The position numbers were made by a program, and so were the translations under genes. From IMG/VR virus record IMGVR_UViG_3300036900_000040, positions 1-22,383 of that record: DNA of 22,383 nt, one strand, 5' to 3'. Below, one piece after another: positions 11,706 through 20,707 of this stretch. The notes beneath the pieces were generated by a model. That model was not told where the DNA came from. It worked only from the letters and a program-made list of their open reading frames with translations, and searched no databases. Numbering within the stretch: position 1 is the first letter of the stretch; each line of letters begins with the position of its first letter. The DNA is from a virus.

Positions 11706-12569
11706 TTATTTGAAGGCCTCGTCGAACGCGACGCCCTCACCCGAAGCGACTTCCTTGTTCCCACCGGGCTTTCCACCGGAGGGGGCCGACGCAATGGACT
11801 TGGGAGGCGGGTCGACATTTCTGCGCGGGGCGAACTGGCCGCCCTCCCCACGCGGTTGCGTATCCGCACCGGTGCTTCCGGTGTCGCCGCCGTTGGCGGC
11901 TGGGTCCTTTTTGGCCCTATGCTGACGGAGCAGTTCGATTTCGTCCTCGTCCAGCCCTTCCAGGATGGCGGGGTCGATCTTGTCCAGCTTCTCGTCCCGC
12001 TGGGCCTTGTTGTAGGCCACGATGGCGGTTTCATAGGGGTCTGGGTCAGTCAAGACCGTGGTGGCGAACGCGGGGTCCGTCTCGAAACGCTTGGTGGCCC
12101 ACTCCATCACCTTGTCGACCAGTTCCGAGCCATGCTCCTTGCGGGCCATGCGCTCGGAAAAGTTCAGCGTGGTGTTGACGGCGTTCAGCTGAACGATGCC
12201 CATCATCTGATTGAACGCACCCTCGGGGTCTTCCTTCGGGTCGATCGGCTCAAACTCCGGGTCGCCGGTTCCAGACGTCGTGTCCGCGCCGGTTCCGGAT
12301 TGGGACAGCCGTTCTTCGGCGTCCTTGGCCCGCTTCCGGGCCTCTTCCAGAGCCGCCAGGGGCACCATCTTCACCGTGCCGGTGGCATCGATCTTGTCGT
12401 CGGCGTCTCCGCCTTCAACGCTGTCCTTCCCAGGTGCTTCCTGGGCCGTCTGAGTGTTGTCTCCGGTCGCGGCTTGCGTGTCGGACCCCGTTTGGGTGTC
12501 TTCCCCGCCGGTCGCGGCTTGCGTGTCGTCACCGAACACGTTATCGAGAGGATCGCGGTCTTCACTCAT
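11706..12569 (-). CDS. Putative scaffolding protein
   Basis: 287 aa, strongly acidic and low-complexity at the N-terminus, with repeated DTQ-containing units (GEDTQTGSDTQAATGDNTQT). A helical charged stretch follows (ALEEARKRAKDAEERL), then a conserved-looking core around residues 115-215 (FNQMMGIVQLNAVNTTLNFS, then ERMARKEHGSELVDKVMEWA). It ends in a disordered, basic Gly/Pro/Arg-rich tail. This layout and its position between portal and capsid genes are typical of phage scaffolding proteins, which guide capsid assembly and then leave. No protease domain is visible. The start is ATG 12569, with only a weak upstream GAG. The specific function is inferred from position and composition. Confidence 0.75.
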   Translation of the reverse strand: MSEDRDPLDNVFGDDTQAATGGEDTQTGSDTQAATGDNTQTAQEAPGKDSVEGGDADDKIDATGTVKMVPLAALEEARKRAKDAEERLSQSGTGADTTSGTGDPEFEPIDPKEDPEGAFNQMMGIVQLNAVNTTLNFSERMARKEHGSELVDKVMEWATKRFETDPAFATTVLTDPDPYETAIVAYNKAQRDEKLDKIDPAILEGLDEDEIELLRQHRAKKDPAANGGDTGSTGADTQPRGEGGQFAPRRNVDPPPKSIASAPSGGKPGGNKEVASGEGVAFDEAFK

Positions 12570-12587
12570 AGCTCAACTCACCGTTTC

Positions 12588-12603
12588 GCGCAGATCGCTG
12601 CGC
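12588..12603 (-). other. Small inverted repeat between portal and scaffold genes
   Basis: GCGCAG and CTGCGC pair around a 4-base loop, giving a 6-bp hairpin in the 58-base gap between the portal stop region and the scaffold ATG. No T-run follows on either strand, so it is not a clear terminator; it may protect or segment the mRNA. Confidence 0.35.
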
Positions 12604-12627
12604 CCCGAACGCCCGAATAGCGGCGGC

Positions 12628-14802
12628 CTATGCATCCTCGGGTTCCCCCTCGGCTGCTCCGTCAGGTTGCTGGGCCTGCTGGTCCAGTTCCTGCTGGTTC
12701 TGTTGCACGGTCGCGTGATCCGTGATCGCGTCGTGCATTGTTGCGACTGCATGGGTGGCCGCTTCGTCCGCCGCCGTCTCAGCTGCGGCGGTTTCCGCGC
12801 CACTCTTGGCGAGCGCTGCGGCCCCTTGCATGATGGTCCCGGCTGCCTTGGCCTTGAGCAAATCGACTTCAGCGGCCAGCTTGTCCATCTGCGCCTGCAT
12901 CTGGATCGCTTGCTGCTTGCTCTGCTGCGCGGCCTTGCCCGCCTGATACTGCTTGAGCATGTCCATGACCTGCCGCTTCCTCGGCAGGGGGCTCAGTTCC
13001 AGGAAGAGTTCGAATGGCACCTGCTCGGCATAGGCCGGGGAAGCCGACACCAGCTTGATCAGGTCCTGCAACATCTCTTGCATGATGTTGGCAGTTTCGG
13101 GCTGGGTGTCGACGATAATGTCGATGTCCATCTCGCCGATTTCGTTGTCGTATCCGAAGACGCTCTCGTTCGCCTTGGGGTGCGGCTCGCCCGCGTTGGG
13201 GTGGTCGTCCGGATAGACGGGCGGATGGAACTGCGGCGGCCCCTGCATGGGCTTGCCCGCCATCGGGTGATCTTCGCCGTCGTCCCCCTGGTCGGGATAC
13301 GTCATCGGCGTCCCGGCAGCCGGGTTCGAGGCTCCCGTTTCGTCGTGGGTCGGGTGCAAGATCGGCGCACCACGCGGCTTGTTGATCATCACGAACTGCG
13401 GATCGTCCGCGTTGTCCGTGACCCTGATCCACTGAGGGTCTTTCCAGTATTGCTGCGCCCGCCACCAGCATTGGTGGTACACGCGAAGCTCCCAATCGTC
13501 GAGTTGGTCGATGACCAGGGCAAGCTCGACTAGTCCGGCTTGTTGCCGCGCCAGGAGCGCTCTTCCGGAGGTATCCGCCCCTTGTCGTCCAAGAACGGCG
13601 GGGTTGGGTCCCATCCGCTCCATTTCGTTCTTGGCTTCGGCGAGGAGTTGCATTTGTCCTGCGGACATGTCGGTGGTTCGGACGACTTCCCATCCGTAAG
13701 GGATGACGCCATCGGGTCGGGCGGCCTCTTTCCGTGCCGTGTCCGCATCCACTTCAATTGCCGACGGATCGCGCGCCTGGATTTGGTGGCTCGAAACCAG
13801 ATGAAGCAGCTTCGACCGACGCTTGTTAATCTCATCTTGGATATCCCGCATATCGCGAACGATGCCATAGCGGTTGTTGTCCTGGTCGATGTAGGCCGTC
13901 ATCGCCTCAATCGGGCAGCACGGGCGGCCTTTGTCGTCCTTGAACGGGCTGACTTCCTCGGCCAGTATCCCCCCACCGTAGAAACAGCACTTGTACCACT
14001 TTCCATCGTACAGGTGGTAGAGTTCAACCAGCATCACGCGCCGGTTGCGGATATCGAGCCACGCGCCCTGGTTACGCGGGCGGTCCTCGAAGGTGCTGTC
14101 GACCGCGCCCCCGAGCCCTTCCATCGAGGAATAGCTCAGGCTGATCTGCTGGCCGGGATACATTCGTTCGACGTCGGTGGAATACATCCACTTGGCGATG
14201 CCGAGATAGGCGGCGTCCTTGAAGTCCCGGCGGCGGCTTCGCGGGTCCCAGAAGAACTCCTCCTGGCGGATTTGCACGACTTCGACGTCGTTGTCCTCGT
14301 TCACCTGGATGATCGAGGCCCCGATCCCCGGCACAAGCATCTCGTAGAAGCACTCGGCCTTCGTCCGGTTCCACCGGTTGCGGTGCGCGATATACCGCAA
14401 AGTGTCCGTCGCGACGTCGGCGGAGTTCTCGTCCTTCGGCGTGCGCGGGAAGCATCGCGGATCGGCCTTGGAATGGATGATCACGCCCAGGATGCCGTTC
14501 ACGGCGGTCCGAACGCGGTTGATGACGATATCCGGCTGGCCTCGGGACGACAGGACCCGCTTTTCCCCCAGGGTCAGCTGCTTCCCGTCATAGTAGTCGA
14601 GGTCAATTGCTTGCTGTCGACGGTTCTCCGTGGACGTGTTGCGGAAGTCGTCGAACATCTTGAGGTAGTCGGCGAGCCCGCGCTTGTAGCTCTGTTGAAC
14701 CGGGGCCTTGCTCTCGGGGGTCGGATAGGCCGTGGCCGGTTGCAGGCCGCCCGCCTTGACATCGACGCCTTCCGCGAGGCCCTCATAATCGGTGCTGGCC
14801 AT
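12628..14802 (-). CDS. Portal protein, P22-like
   Basis: 724 aa from ATG 14802. An upstream in-frame TTG at 14817 is rejected because GGAAGG sits correctly for the ATG. The protein has P22-type portal features: QPDIVINRVRTAVNGILGVI, then SADVATDTLRYIAHRNRWNR, PGIGASIIQVNEDNDVEVVQ, EEFFWDPRSRRRDFKDAAYL and GIVRDMRDIQDEINKRRSKL. The C-terminal 120 residues are Gln/Ala-rich and helical (QQSKQQAIQMQAQMDKLAAE), comparable to the barrel of P22-like portals. The portal forms the dodecameric ring through which terminase pumps DNA and onto which gp4 and gp10 later bind. The length is close to P22 portal (about 725 aa). Its ATG overlaps the terminase TGA (TGATG). An insert around residues 505-560 is rich in Pro, Asp and His and looks unstructured. 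Confidence 0.9.
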   Translation of the reverse strand: MASTDYEGLAEGVDVKAGGLQPATAYPTPESKAPVQQSYKRGLADYLKMFDDFRNTSTENRRQQAIDLDYYDGKQLTLGEKRVLSSRGQPDIVINRVRTAVNGILGVIIHSKADPRCFPRTPKDENSADVATDTLRYIAHRNRWNRTKAECFYEMLVPGIGASIIQVNEDNDVEVVQIRQEEFFWDPRSRRRDFKDAAYLGIAKWMYSTDVERMYPGQQISLSYSSMEGLGGAVDSTFEDRPRNQGAWLDIRNRRVMLVELYHLYDGKWYKCCFYGGGILAEEVSPFKDDKGRPCCPIEAMTAYIDQDNNRYGIVRDMRDIQDEINKRRSKLLHLVSSHQIQARDPSAIEVDADTARKEAARPDGVIPYGWEVVRTTDMSAGQMQLLAEAKNEMERMGPNPAVLGRQGADTSGRALLARQQAGLVELALVIDQLDDWELRVYHQCWWRAQQYWKDPQWIRVTDNADDPQFVMINKPRGAPILHPTHDETGASNPAAGTPMTYPDQGDDGEDHPMAGKPMQGPPQFHPPVYPDDHPNAGEPHPKANESVFGYDNEIGEMDIDIIVDTQPETANIMQEMLQDLIKLVSASPAYAEQVPFELFLELSPLPRKRQVMDMLKQYQAGKAAQQSKQQAIQMQAQMDKLAAEVDLLKAKAAGTIMQGAAALAKSGAETAAAETAADEAATHAVATMHDAITDHATVQQNQQELDQQAQQPDGAAEGEPEDA

Positions 14803-16193
14803 CAGGCGACCTTCCAATTAGGGACGCCCCGGTCGAACATCGATTTCTTCCCGGTCGTCCAGCCGCCCTCATTGGGCTCTGGCTTGGTGTTGTCGCGTGT
14901 CGCGAACTTCATGTTCACCGCCCCCTCGCCGATGCTGTCCGCAGCATGGCTGTGTTCGTTGTGCAGAGGCCCGACAAAGATGCCCAGGCTCTGATTGAAC
15001 CGCTTCCGATACTGCTTGAGATGGTCGATGCCCGCTTGGCAACCCTCGATGTCGAAATGGGAGTACGGAAGCATCCGCCGCACGGCGTTGATCCGCTCTT
15101 CCGGGTCCCGCGCGATCCCTGCCCGAATGGGTCTGATCCCCAGCGAGTGAAGGGTCTGCAGTCTCGAACGCCCACCGGCCCCAAGCTCTCGTACGCGCAC
15201 GTCATGCGGTAAGTAATGCATGCCGTATTGGTACTTCAAGGTTCGCCGGTTCTCCTTAAATGCTTCACGCACGATCGCATCAAGGCCAAGATCGCTCGTC
15301 TCGTAGAAGCCGAGGAAATTGACCCGAACGGGGGAGATACGCTGGCTGAACCAGATGGAGGTATAGTCGTCGATCCCGAGGTCCCACATTGTGTCGACCT
15401 TGATGCCGGGGGTGTGCGGGACGTTCCCGATCCGGCCCATGGTTTCGCACGCGAGCATCTGTTCGGCATAATAGGCCCCCGGCGCGGCGCTGTCGAAGTC
15501 GACCATATACTCGGAGTTGAAGATCGCGGTGCCTTCCGCGACGGACCCGGCCTCGTTGATCAGGTCCTGCTTTTCCTTCTCTAGTTGCTCGGGTGTGAAG
15601 ACTGGCGTCACCGTGGCCGGGATGCGGGCGGTGAACCACTCCGGGTCCCGCTCGCGGGCTTCGAAGGCCCGAGTGGCGTGCCCTCTTCCGCGCGGGGTCC
15701 AGATGAACACCGCCCAGCCGCCGTTCTCCAGGAGGATCGGCCTTACGTAATTCCAGCCATTAGGCTTCGCAAGGCTCCACTCAGAGAAGATAACGCCGAT
15801 AGGAGGAGAGCCCACAAAGCTATCGAAATTATCAGAGCCAAGCACCTGCCAAGTGGAACCGTTTTTGAACCGGATGAACATGTCCTGGTCGACGGTGTTC
15901 GCTCGGAGTTCCTGCGGAAACGCTTCATCGATGCGCCTCTTTCCCGTTCGCGGGTTAACGGCATTCCAGATGGCCTTCCGCGCTTGGCTGGCCTCCGGGA
16001 GCATGTGCCAATAGACCCCCACCCGTTCGTGCATCGCGGTCGCCGTCCAATGCAGCGACACGTCGTCCTTTCCCCAGCGCCGGTGCGCAACCACATCGCA
16101 CCGCTTCCCGCCGTTTTCCAGATACGCCCACATGGGCATCTGGTCGGGTCGGGGCCGCCAATTATTCGGTAGTTGGATGTGGTTGACGGGCAC
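14802..16193 (-). CDS. Terminase large subunit (packaging ATPase and nuclease)
   Basis: 463 aa from GTG 16193, which immediately follows the TAG of the 59-aa gene; conserved-looking residues begin at once (QLPNNWRPRPDQ), so a later start is unlikely. ATPase: Walker A-like HRRWGKDD at 37-44, Walker B-like GVIFSEW at 133-139 with Glu138 as the likely catalytic residue, and coupling motif WTPRGRGH at 165-172. Nuclease: MWDLGIDD at 269-276 (Asp271) and a C-terminal HSHAADSIGEG segment supply the expected acidic residues. It drives DNA into the procapsid and cuts genome ends. The Walker A variant (R-W-G-K-D instead of G-K-T/S) is known in several phage terminases. No good ribosome site precedes the GTG, so translation probably depends on coupling to the upstream gene. 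Confidence 0.92.
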   Translation of the reverse strand: MPVNHIQLPNNWRPRPDQMPMWAYLENGGKRCDVVAHRRWGKDDVSLHWTATAMHERVGVYWHMLPEASQARKAIWNAVNPRTGKRRIDEAFPQELRANTVDQDMFIRFKNGSTWQVLGSDNFDSFVGSPPIGVIFSEWSLAKPNGWNYVRPILLENGGWAVFIWTPRGRGHATRAFEARERDPEWFTARIPATVTPVFTPEQLEKEKQDLINEAGSVAEGTAIFNSEYMVDFDSAAPGAYYAEQMLACETMGRIGNVPHTPGIKVDTMWDLGIDDYTSIWFSQRISPVRVNFLGFYETSDLGLDAIVREAFKENRRTLKYQYGMHYLPHDVRVRELGAGGRSRLQTLHSLGIRPIRAGIARDPEERINAVRRMLPYSHFDIEGCQAGIDHLKQYRKRFNQSLGIFVGPLHNEHSHAADSIGEGAVNMKFATRDNTKPEPNEGGWTTGKKSMFDRGVPNWKVA

Positions 16194-16776: not shown

Positions 16777-16830
16777 GGCGCATATGGGACCACGCGAGCG
16801 CGCGCCGTGTCAAGTAGAAGCTTGCACGAA

Positions 16831-16863
16831 CGGCCCCCAGCGCCTGAGGGGAACCGGGGGCCG
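16831..16863. repeat. 8-bp inverted repeat in late-operon leader
   Basis: CGGCCCCC (16831-16838) and GGGGGCCG (16856-16863) are perfect complements around a 17-base loop. If the candidate promoter at 16944-16971 is used, this hairpin falls in the 5' leader of the terminase transcript, where it could affect stability, termination or packaging-site recognition. No T-run follows on either strand. Confidence 0.45.
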
Positions 16864-16943
16864 GAGCCGAAGCTCGGTCGAGCGTGCGCATTGGGAACCG
16901 GTCAGGACCGTATCCCGCAACCCAGGGGGTCGACGGCGGGGAG

Positions 16944-16971
16944 ATTAACACGGAGCGCGGGTCCCGGTCAA
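16944..16971 (-). promoter_or_regulatory. Candidate leftward promoter for the late operon
   Basis: On the minus strand: TTGACC (16971-16966), a 16-base spacer, then GTTAAT (16949-16944), a fair match to bacterial sigma-70 boxes. It points at the terminase small subunit about 170 bases downstream. This is motif-only evidence, and the phage may instead use a modified or phage-encoded factor. Confidence 0.35.
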
Positions 16972-17437
16972 GTTCGGAGCGTTGCACGGGCGGGATTACA
17001 TTGGACCCGGAGCCCGGCTGAGAGAGCGGGTCCTTGGAGTTTTGGGTCCCTCCCCCAGGGTGGGTCGGGCGCATGGGGAGGGGGATATATCTGCACTTCC
17101 CCCCGGCGCTGCTTTTTTGTCCGCGCGCGTACGCGGGGCTTCTGGCATGGGGCTTGCATACGCACGAAGCGTGCCACGTCGCCGGGCATGTGGCTTCCGT
17201 GCACCAGGGTTCTCCTCCCGGTCGCTCGTTCCCGTTTCGTTCCCTTGACACGAGGCTGATTTTTGACCGAGGCCCATCTAGCCATATTCCGGCTACATCT
17301 ATAGCCCAGACATCTCCCGCCCGTCCGTGGCCCCTTCCTGTGTCACGACGCCCGGTGTGGCCTTCCCGCAACATGCGAAGCCTCGTCTTCTCGTCGGTAA
17401 TTCCGCGTTAACCCTGGCCGTGGTATCCTACACGCAT

Positions 17438-17451
17438 GGGCAGACACGCCC
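17438..17451 (+). promoter_or_regulatory. Leader hairpin motif upstream of the first rightward gene
   Basis: GGGC-AGACAC-GCCC, a 4-bp stem with a 6-base loop, ends 20 bases before the ATG at 17472. A nearly identical element (GGGC-AATCAC-GCCC) precedes the gene at 18379 at almost the same distance. A TATCCT box lies 14 bases upstream of the stem (17424), matching the TTCTCT position at 18333. Confidence 0.4.
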
Positions 17452-17471
17452 CAGCACACGGAGATATCGAG

Positions 17472-17675
17472 ATGACCACGCGAGACGAAATCGAAGGCGG
17501 CCCGGCTCCCCTCGTCAGCCTGACGGAAGCCCGGAACTTCCAGAGCCGCGAGGACGCGGAAGCCTACCTCGAACGCACCGGCGACCCGGCCCGCGCGGCA
17601 ATCCTGCCGCATCCGGACGGCCCGGTCATCGCGAGCGTCGCCGAGGACGGCGCGATCCTGGGGTACGTGGCATGA
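17472..17675 (+). CDS. Small hypothetical early protein (67 aa)
   Basis: Starts at ATG 17472, with GGAGA eight bases upstream; an in-frame ATG at 17436 is rejected because it lies in the conserved leader hairpin motif and lacks a ribosome site. The protein is acidic (MTTRDEIEGGPAPLVSLTEA), with a helix FQSREDAEAYLERTG and a beta-like end VIASVAEDGAILGYVA. No family is recognised. It is the first gene of the rightward operon, and its TGA overlaps the next ATG (ATGA), so the two are probably made together. First genes of phage early operons often encode host-takeover factors, but nothing in this sequence shows that. Confidence 0.7.
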   Translation: MTTRDEIEGGPAPLVSLTEARNFQSREDAEAYLERTGDPARAAILPHPDGPVIASVAEDGAILGYVA

Positions 17676-17866
17676 GCGCCCAAGCCCGCATCGAAGCCTG
17701 CCTCAATCTGGCGTCCGGCTTCCTGATCAGCGCCCGTCTGGCCTTCCTGGCCGGGGATCACGACACGCAAGCCCGAATGGAGGCCACGGCAGCCGCCTAC
17801 GAGCGGGAAGCGGACCGCATCATGATGGCCGAGAACGCCATCCGTCTGCCGCACGTGTGCGCGTGA
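17672..17866 (+). CDS. Small hypothetical early protein (64 aa), helical
   Basis: ATG 17672 overlaps the previous stop by four bases. The 64-residue product is almost wholly helical: an amphipathic first helix (RIEACLNLASGFLISARLAF), a turn GDHD, and a second helix (ARMEATAAAYEREADRIMMA) ending in RLPHVCA. It could be a helical hairpin that dimerises, but no family is recognised. It ends just before a 0.5-kb repeat-rich non-coding block, so the two-gene transcript may end or be processed there. Confidence 0.68.
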   Translation: MSAQARIEACLNLASGFLISARLAFLAGDHDTQARMEATAAAYEREADRIMMAENAIRLPHVCA

Positions 17867-18004
17867 CCTGCATGGCCCGTCGCCCGCCCCTCGCCGCCCG
17901 CTGGCACGGCTGGCACGCTGCTGCGCTCGTATACGCCGAGTGTGGAGGGGTGGTCCAGAACACCGCCGCGACGACGACTGAGAGAGAGACTGAGGATAGG
18001 GGAG

Positions 18005-18156
18005 CAGCAGCGTGCCAGCAGTGTCAGCAGCCCCGCACTCGCCTCCCTCGGCGGTGCACGGTCCCCGCAGCCTGCACACCGCGCTATCCGCACATGCGTG
18101 CCACATCCCTCCTCCTGGCCTGCTGCTGCACGGCTGTCACTGCTGGCACGCTGCTG
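18005..18156. repeat. 19-bp perfect inverted repeat with 114-base loop
   Basis: Arms 18005-18023 and 18138-18156 are exact complements (the second arm is CACTGCTGGCACGCTGCTG). Pairing can continue past a 3-base bulge into GGCTG/CAGCC. Transcribed in either direction, it would form one long stem enclosing a GC-rich domain. Confidence 0.7.
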
Positions 18157-18308
18157 TACGGGCCTAGCTCCATGCTGCGCTCCCATACTGATGCGGGCTG
18201 CGGGGCCGCTGCTGCGCCTCCGAGTTGTAGGTGTGCGCCCTGCTGGCACGCTGCTGACTACCCCCGAGGTGTGCACGCGCGCCTCCCTCGCCGCCTGCTG
18301 CGTGGAAC

Positions 18309-18338
18309 TTGACACGAACCCCCCTCCCATGCTTCTCT
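18309..18338 (+). promoter_or_regulatory. Candidate promoter for the 305-aa gene
   Basis: A perfect TTGACA (18309-18314), then an 18-base spacer and TTCTCT (18333-18338), a weak -10. The gene starts 40 bases further on. The same CTTGACACGA string occurs at 17244-17253, so the box may be part of a phage-specific promoter or operator rather than a plain sigma-70 site. Confidence 0.35.
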
Positions 18339-18346
18339 ATGGACAC

Positions 18347-18360
18347 GGGCAATCACGCCC
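18347..18360 (+). promoter_or_regulatory. Leader hairpin motif upstream of the 305-aa gene
   Basis: GGGC-AATCAC-GCCC ends 18 bases before ATG 18379 and is the second copy of the element at 17438-17451. It is followed by AGCCTGAGGA, which carries the ribosome site and is shared with the leader at 19390. Confidence 0.4.
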
Positions 18361-18378
18361 AAGCCTGAGGACACCGAA

Positions 18379-19296
18379 ATGACCATCCATCACAGCATCA
18401 TCAAGAAGGCCGCCGGGCTCGGGGTCATCCTGACCCAAGACGACGACGGCATCAAGGCCAATCTCGCCGAACACGGCATCCTGATCACCCTGGAGGTCGA
18501 GGACGAGGCCGAAGCCAGCGCCATCAACGAGCAGGCGCAAGACGCGCTCCGGGACGTCCTGGAGATGCGGGACTATCAGGCCGAACACCCCAAGATCGCC
18601 ATTCGGCACGAGGACGGCGATTTCGTCGCCTACCATCGTGCGGGTCGCGGGTTGGGTGATGAGATCGCCCGTGATCCCGAGCTTGCGGACCTCTTCGAGA
18701 CGCTGCAGGAGCAGGACCCCGATGGCGGCGAAGCCGACGACGAGGACGAACAGACCGGCTCCGTGGTCCCGGCCAAGTACAAGCGCGAATACGCCGAACG
18801 CGGCGACCCGGCGAACTGCGGCGACTGGCTCGCCCTGGAACTGAAGGGCCTGTGCCGGGTCCTGGAGGACGGCAAGGAGGTCACCGACCTGGACCGCCTG
18901 CAGACCATCGCCAACGCCAACGACGTCGACCCGGCGCGGTACGGGAAGCTGGGCGTGGCCACGAACGGCTGGCAAGGGCGGTATCGCATGACGATCCGCA
19001 ACATGCTCACCCCGCGTGTGGCCGCGAAGGGGTTCCTGTTCATCCCCGAGGGCGTGGACGCCAAGGGCGAGCGGGAAATCAAGGCCCCGCGCCAGTGGTG
19101 CATCGAACACAGCCCGAAGCCCAAGGCTCCCAAGACGGCCAGCCCCAAGGCCGCTGTCGCCAAGAACGAGGGCGCGGGCAAGGCCAGTGCGAAGACCCAG
19201 GCCAAGAAGGGTCCGAAGCTGGACGGCATCGCCGCCGCTGGGGAGGCCATTCGATCCTCCAAGGCCAAGGAAGCGGCCCGCAGGGCGGCGAAGTAA
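18379..19296 (+). CDS. Conserved phage protein of unknown function with histone-H1-like tail
   Basis: 305 aa from ATG 18379, with GAGGA upstream. Residues 1-110 are acidic and helical. A linker at 111-127 is almost all Asp, Glu, Gly and Gln. Residues 128-240 look like a domain shared by many phage proteins: VVPAKYKREYAERG, then CGDWLALELK at 147-156, then IANANDVDPARYGKL and NGWQGRYRMTIRNML at 196-210. Residues 246-305 are Lys/Ala/Pro-rich (SPKPKAPKTASPKAAVAKN) and resemble histone H1 or bacterial H1-like tails, so DNA binding is plausible. The domain family has no established role that I know. An acidic front with a basic tail may allow self-interaction or displacement from DNA. It stands alone between two leaders, so it is probably its own transcription unit. 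Confidence 0.78.
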   Translation: MTIHHSIIKKAAGLGVILTQDDDGIKANLAEHGILITLEVEDEAEASAINEQAQDALRDVLEMRDYQAEHPKIAIRHEDGDFVAYHRAGRGLGDEIARDPELADLFETLQEQDPDGGEADDEDEQTGSVVPAKYKREYAERGDPANCGDWLALELKGLCRVLEDGKEVTDLDRLQTIANANDVDPARYGKLGVATNGWQGRYRMTIRNMLTPRVAAKGFLFIPEGVDAKGEREIKAPRQWCIEHSPKPKAPKTASPKAAVAKNEGAGKASAKTQAKKGPKLDGIAAAGEAIRSSKAKEAARRAAK

Positions 19297-20446: not shown

Positions 20447-20707
20447 ATGAACGCCAAGACAGAGCGCTACTTCACCTTGACGCAGGTCGCCAAGCGGCTC
20501 GACCTGCACCGGACCACCGTGCTTCGCATGGAGCAGCGGGGCCTGATCCCCAAGGCCAAGTGGATACAGAAGCCGATCCGTGGGCGCATCTACACGGAGG
20601 CCGACATCAAAGTGATCGAGGCCAAGGTGGAAGAGTACTTCGCCACGGGCAAGCCCAACCCGGCTGGGATGATCCTGGACCCGGCCCACGTGAGTGAGCC
20701 CGAATGA
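20447..20707 (+). CDS. Small MerR/excisionase-like helix-turn-helix protein
   Basis: 86 aa, ATG one base after the previous TAA, with AGAGGA upstream. Residues 8-55 form a winged-helix pattern of the MerR/excisionase type: YFTLTQVAKRLDLHRTTVLR gives the HTH, and MEQRGLIPKAKW followed by GRIYTEADIKVIEAKV gives the wing and following helix. The family binds DNA as a repressor, activator or recombination directionality factor. No integrase is in the window, so a transcriptional role is more likely than excision. Its TGA overlaps the next ATG. The dyads in the leaders at 17438, 18347 and 21969 are candidate targets, by inference only. Confidence 0.8.
   Translation: MNAKTERYFTLTQVAKRLDLHRTTVLRMEQRGLIPKAKWIQKPIRGRIYTEADIKVIEAKVEEYFATGKPNPAGMILDPAHVSEPE

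Follow-up and report, generated by a model that had tools for sequence, protein, structure and literature searches.

The stretch of DNA analyzed here, referred to as the window, is the entire 22,383-bp virus record IMGVR_UViG_3300036900_000040, and the element in question is a repeat-rich non-coding block located between two early genes at positions 17867-18378. The late genes are located on the minus strand and include the terminase large subunit (14802-16193), the portal protein (12628-14817) and other structural genes, and the early genes begin at 17436 on the plus strand. The two early genes upstream of the block (17436-17672 and 17672-17866) are coding-like in a codon test, and the block is followed by a plus-strand gene for an early protein of 305 amino acids with a basic tail (18379-19296). 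The nearest named relative, based on the 305-residue protein and a DUF2786 protein, is Ochrobactrum phage vB_OspP_OH of the genus Wolominvirus. The closest contig found was IMGVR_UViG_3300022179_000816 (41,495 bp; hereafter G001, with loci L021 and L005), the terminase of which is 76-77% identical to that of the window phage, followed by the somewhat more distant L022 and L023.

The block is non-coding in all six frames. Codon log-odds are between -0.32 and -0.61 depending on the frame, as compared to +0.12 to +0.38 for the phage genes, and the GC content is flat across codon positions (0.68-0.70, versus roughly 0.6/0.46/0.8 in the phage genes). A non-coding block of 0.57 kb was identified in the same place in G001 (L021:1010-1588), flanked by a small early gene and the homolog of the 305-residue protein, with the same picture in the codon test. 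The preliminary description of this DNA refers to a genome in which genes otherwise overlap, but the divergent late/early region at 16777-17435 (0.66 kb) is also non-coding by the same codon test, and the block is thus the second gene-free stretch of the window.

Within the block, 42 pairs of shared 11-mers located at least 11 bases apart were counted, of which 20 are direct and 22 are inverted. In 1000 dinucleotide shuffles, the mean was 0.66 pairs (standard deviation 1.1) and the highest count was 8. Elsewhere in the window, repeats are dense in one spot only, a direct repeat at around 12251-12750 that falls mostly inside the gene at 11706-12569. The 17-mer CTGCTGGCACGCTGCTG is present on the minus strand at 18140-18156 and 18240-18256, with a spacing of exactly 100 bases, and a third minus-strand copy with one mismatch is located at 17907-17923. 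A perfect copy in the reverse-complement orientation at 18005-18021 (+) falls inside a conserved nucleus described below, and the longest exact inverted match in the block is 19 bp (18005-18023 with 18138-18156). In addition, two tandem copies of the 9-mer GCTGGCACG were identified on the minus strand (feature 17900-17918, with the repeat itself at 17900-17917). All of the repeats named in the preliminary description, among them the 17-mer copies 100 bases apart, the inverted copies and the tandem 9-mers, are present, in an excess far beyond that in shuffled sequences.

The repeats share a core motif, GYGTGCCAGC, with four copies in the window at 17909-17918 (-), 18010-18019 (+), 18142-18151 (-) and 18242-18251 (-), all of which are within the block; the first is preceded by a one-mismatch copy at 17900, in the tandem 9-mers. 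Likewise, the three exact copies in the 41.5 kb of G001 are all confined to the G001 block. All copies in the window are GCGTGCCAGC, with a C at position 2, whereas all copies in G001 are GTGTGCCAGC, with a T at this position, and the near-copies at 1105 and 1427 in G001 carry the same T. The change in the motif has thus reached every copy in both orientations, such that the repeats have changed together. Such uniformity within each lineage is expected if a single binding protein reads, and co-evolves with, all of the sites, and is also expected if recombination homogenizes the copies.

The conserved nucleus, GACGACTGAGAGAGAGACTGAGGATAGGGGAGCAGCAGCGTGCCAGC, covers 47 bp on the plus strand (17973-18019) and is 89% identical to L021:1166-1212 (42/47, E = 4e-14). 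Apart from the nucleus and the motif copies, there is hardly any alignment between the blocks of the window and G001. Four-fold degenerate sites of the shared genes are saturated, with about 43% identity over 569 sites in five gene pairs, of which one misframed pair contributed 34 sites. Compared to such saturation, 42 matches over 47 positions of non-coding DNA point to selection on the nucleus. No relatives of the block were found at the DNA level in phage or plasmid collections, and a search of viral contigs for the nucleus pattern recovered only G001 and L019, the latter of which is unrelated and AT-rich. A search with the 16-mer GCAGCAGYGTGCCAGC yielded 96 stretches with a single match in every row listed, so these matches, with the exception of G001, are presumably due to chance. 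The preliminary description held that codon-level conservation of an open reading frame, or absence of the block from close relatives, would argue against its proposals. No such codon-level conservation was found; the block is absent from this site in L022 and L023, where no such block precedes the gene of the 305-residue family, but it is present in the nearest relative, G001. The block is most accurately viewed as characteristic of the lineage that includes the window phage and G001.

We tentatively favor the interpretation that the block acts in cis as an array of putative protein sites, with the core GCGTGCCAGC in both orientations, at which replication of the phage is most likely initiated or controlled. 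Here, we infer the binding of a protein, its identity, and replication rather than transcription as the output. A sequence-specific DNA-binding phage initiator, perhaps the Prim-Pol/helicase or a partner thereof, would bind to the iterons, distort the DNA, and then load the helicase. The occurrence of both direct and inverted copies, along with a fold that is not conserved, favors protein sites over a single RNA stem. G001 encodes a Prim-Pol (5e-7) and a DUF5906 (2e-23)/VapE-like (1e-7) helicase about 6 kb downstream of the block. Primase/replication proteins act on iterons in the non-coding origins of phage-inducible chromosomal islands (PICIs), of which an AT-rich segment flanked by iterons is a feature (PMC6092414), and in the PICI-like elements (PLE) the initiator RepA is associated with iterons in a non-coding region (PMC7145576). 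The Prim-Pol/helicase in G001 together with these precedents makes a replication-initiation region our first choice. The proposal in the preliminary description of a region of iterated sites, either an origin or a binding array, is borne out by the non-coding status of the block, the confinement of the motif to it, the syntenic position in G001 and the lineage-wide motif change.

Several observations weigh against a role in replication. The motif is common to two genomes only, and the window stops short of the replication genes and thus does not include the initiator of this phage. Over 50 bp, the AT content of the block reaches at most 46% in the window and 52% in G001, such that there is no AT-rich unwinding segment, and no DnaA boxes were found in the window. 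A primase or helicase of the same class is encoded in L022 and L023, neither of which has such a block at this site. The GC-skew analysis, which was put forward as a check in the preliminary description, gave a divided answer: the cumulative minimum of the window is located at 18490, adjoining the block, which speaks for a role in replication, whereas that of G001 is located 2.4 kb beyond the block, and both minima are confounded by gene orientation. A more specific version, in which the block would represent a putative origin without an AT-rich unwinding segment, with iterons in both orientations around the nucleus (with its purine-rich GAGAGAGAGACTGAGG) in DNA of 69% GC and with sites that evolve with the initiator, is doubtful.

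The missing AT-rich segment, the missing DnaA boxes and the block-free relatives with the same class of enzymes place an operator array close behind. According to this explanation, which we consider possible, the sites are bound by a regulator, of phage or host origin, that controls an early promoter at about 18309, in front of the operon of the 305-residue protein, and have no role in replication. The hexamer TTGACA at 18309-18314 (+), the predicted -35 element of the next gene, has a counterpart in the same place in an alignment with G001 (L021, about 1514) and is probably an early promoter element just downstream of the site array, with a distance from the last core site of about 58 bp in the window and 80 bp in G001. 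A precedent is provided by phage vB_BsubS-Delta, in which divergent genes are separated by 1,312 bp with 12 CtrA sites (PMC9437464), and the window phage encodes an HTH_17/MerR-like protein (gene at 20447). However, the sites span about 340 bp with no evident helical phasing, no TTAA-N7-TTAA sequence is present in the window, and a strict promoter scan did not identify a full sigma-70 match at the 18309 promoter. The gene for the HTH_17/MerR-like protein is also retained in the block-free L022 and L023. A sigma-54 site was considered and rejected: the core contains TGGCAC, but, as judged by eye, the GC that follows is closer by one base than the usual spacing of the -24/-12 elements requires. 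A scan of the window for IHF consensus sites was negative.

It is unlikely that a stem of 17 to 19 bp forms the basis of a structured non-coding RNA, another suggestion of the preliminary description, or of a long leader. The inverted match of 19 bp is perfect, and a potential stem of 9-12 bp between the nucleus and 18203-18214 can pair in both phages, with one compensatory change from C-G to U-A. This change is the lineage-wide change of the motif itself, and hence does not provide independent evidence for an RNA. Folding was weakly better than that of shuffled sequences, with z-scores of -1.89 (+) and -0.60 (-) for the window and -1.61 and -2.20 for G001, but the pairing partners in the minimum-energy folds differ between the two phages, and the consensus energy for the two sequences was -73 kcal/mol as compared to -237 and -274 kcal/mol for the single sequences. 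No match was obtained for the window at the gathering score in Rfam, only chance-level matches to microRNAs (E-values of 0.28 and 4.8).

It is very unlikely that the block has no function and represents decayed DNA or a spacer expanded by repeats. The poor alignment beyond the nucleus and the motif copies would be consistent with such a history, as would the repeat-rich spacers of unrelated sequence found close to the early region in other phages of the group, but the nucleus has been kept far beyond the saturated four-fold sites and each lineage has one shared variant among its motif copies. Among the loci of the 305-residue family, several (e.g., L007, L038, L045 and L076) contain both direct and inverted repeats in spacers close to the early region, with sequences unrelated to the block, and other loci have none. 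Long spacers with repeats of other motifs in both orientations were observed in L084 (7321-7660), L045 (2300-4200), L076 (4700-5600) and L038 (3500-4300), and the spacer in L084 contains AGGTAGTGAC three times per strand. Blocks of mixed direct and inverted repeats were located near the family gene in 11 of 20 loci, as compared to 7.0 expected (P = 0.048), in a post hoc association that includes the window and G001. A family-wide link between such blocks and this gene is suggestive only, and the block may be an instance of a control region that evolves fast. Finally, a conserved protein-coding gene within the block, for which a frame with TTERETE..GAA.CQ is open across most of both blocks, is highly unlikely and is rejected by the codon test, with negative log-odds in every frame and flat GC by codon position in both phages, as well as by three amino acid-altering differences out of five in the nucleus (counted by hand) and by motif copies in different frames on both strands.

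The 305-residue protein has homologs in about 70 phage loci, with 57% identity to the homolog in G001, a conserved GWQGR.RMT.RN core and up to three or four paralogs per fetched phage locus; no homologs were found in the genome contigs searched. The family has no Pfam, PHROG or PDB fold match. The structural model of the protein (pLDDT, the predicted local distance difference test score, of 83) had no Foldseek match under an E-value of 0.13, and VIA-align Z-scores were at most 5.2 over the N-terminal 60 residues, so no DNA-binding role can be read from it. The preliminary description nominated this protein and the HTH_17/MerR-like protein as binding partners; neither gained special support, the former having no recognizable fold and the latter being encoded in relatives without the block.

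TTGACA hexamers were also observed at 16812 (-) and 17245 (+) in the window, and all of these, including that at 18309 (+), have counterparts in G001. Located in the two gene-free regions, these hexamers resemble the -35 elements of late and early promoters. The sequence GTTAACCC..CGTGGTAT in the early promoter region (17397-17425 in the window; 230-264 in L021) is common to both phages. A single exact TTAA-N7-TTAA box is located just before an early gene in G001 (L021 230-264) and in L022 (about 903), in each case the sole one in 12 kb, and the copy in the window (17397-17411) has one mismatch. Judging from these boxes, the early genes may be controlled by the host CtrA. The contig ends of G001 (the starts of L005 and L021) lie within the gap between the divergent late and early genes, and the start of L022 is likewise just ahead of its first early gene; the ends of the linear genome are probably located in this gap, at about 16960-17040 in the window. 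An exact copy of TTGGGTCCCTCCCCCA (17042-17057 in the window) is located in G001, 23 bp from the contig end.

Taken together, the block is real and non-coding with a nucleus under selection; its motif is new, but elements of this kind are known. To our knowledge, neither the start of replication nor the switching of early genes has been studied in Wolominvirus-like podoviruses. With a defined motif, a nucleus and two natural variants, binding, origin activity and the co-evolution of sites and protein are directly testable; otherwise, the block is a normal kind of phage control region. Phage vB_OspP_OH has the same late/early gene arrangement, but no such block precedes its homolog of the 305-residue protein, where the gap is 85 bp, and nothing on such repeats was found in the paper describing this phage (PMC7139368). 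The CtrA array of vB_BsubS-Delta is similar in that an alphaproteobacterial phage has many copies of one site within a gene-free stretch of unusual length, but its motif is TTAA-N7-TTAA rather than GYGTGCCAGC, and the block is situated between early genes of the same orientation. Compared to the iteron origins of Prim/Rep replicons, such as phage P4, the PICIs and the PLE with RepA, the block has a different motif and no AT-rich unwinding segment; the initiator of the PLE (RepA_N) furthermore belongs to another family. What the block has in common with these replicons is the repetition of short sites in non-coding DNA and, as seen in G001 only, a Prim-Pol/helicase of the same broad kind nearby.
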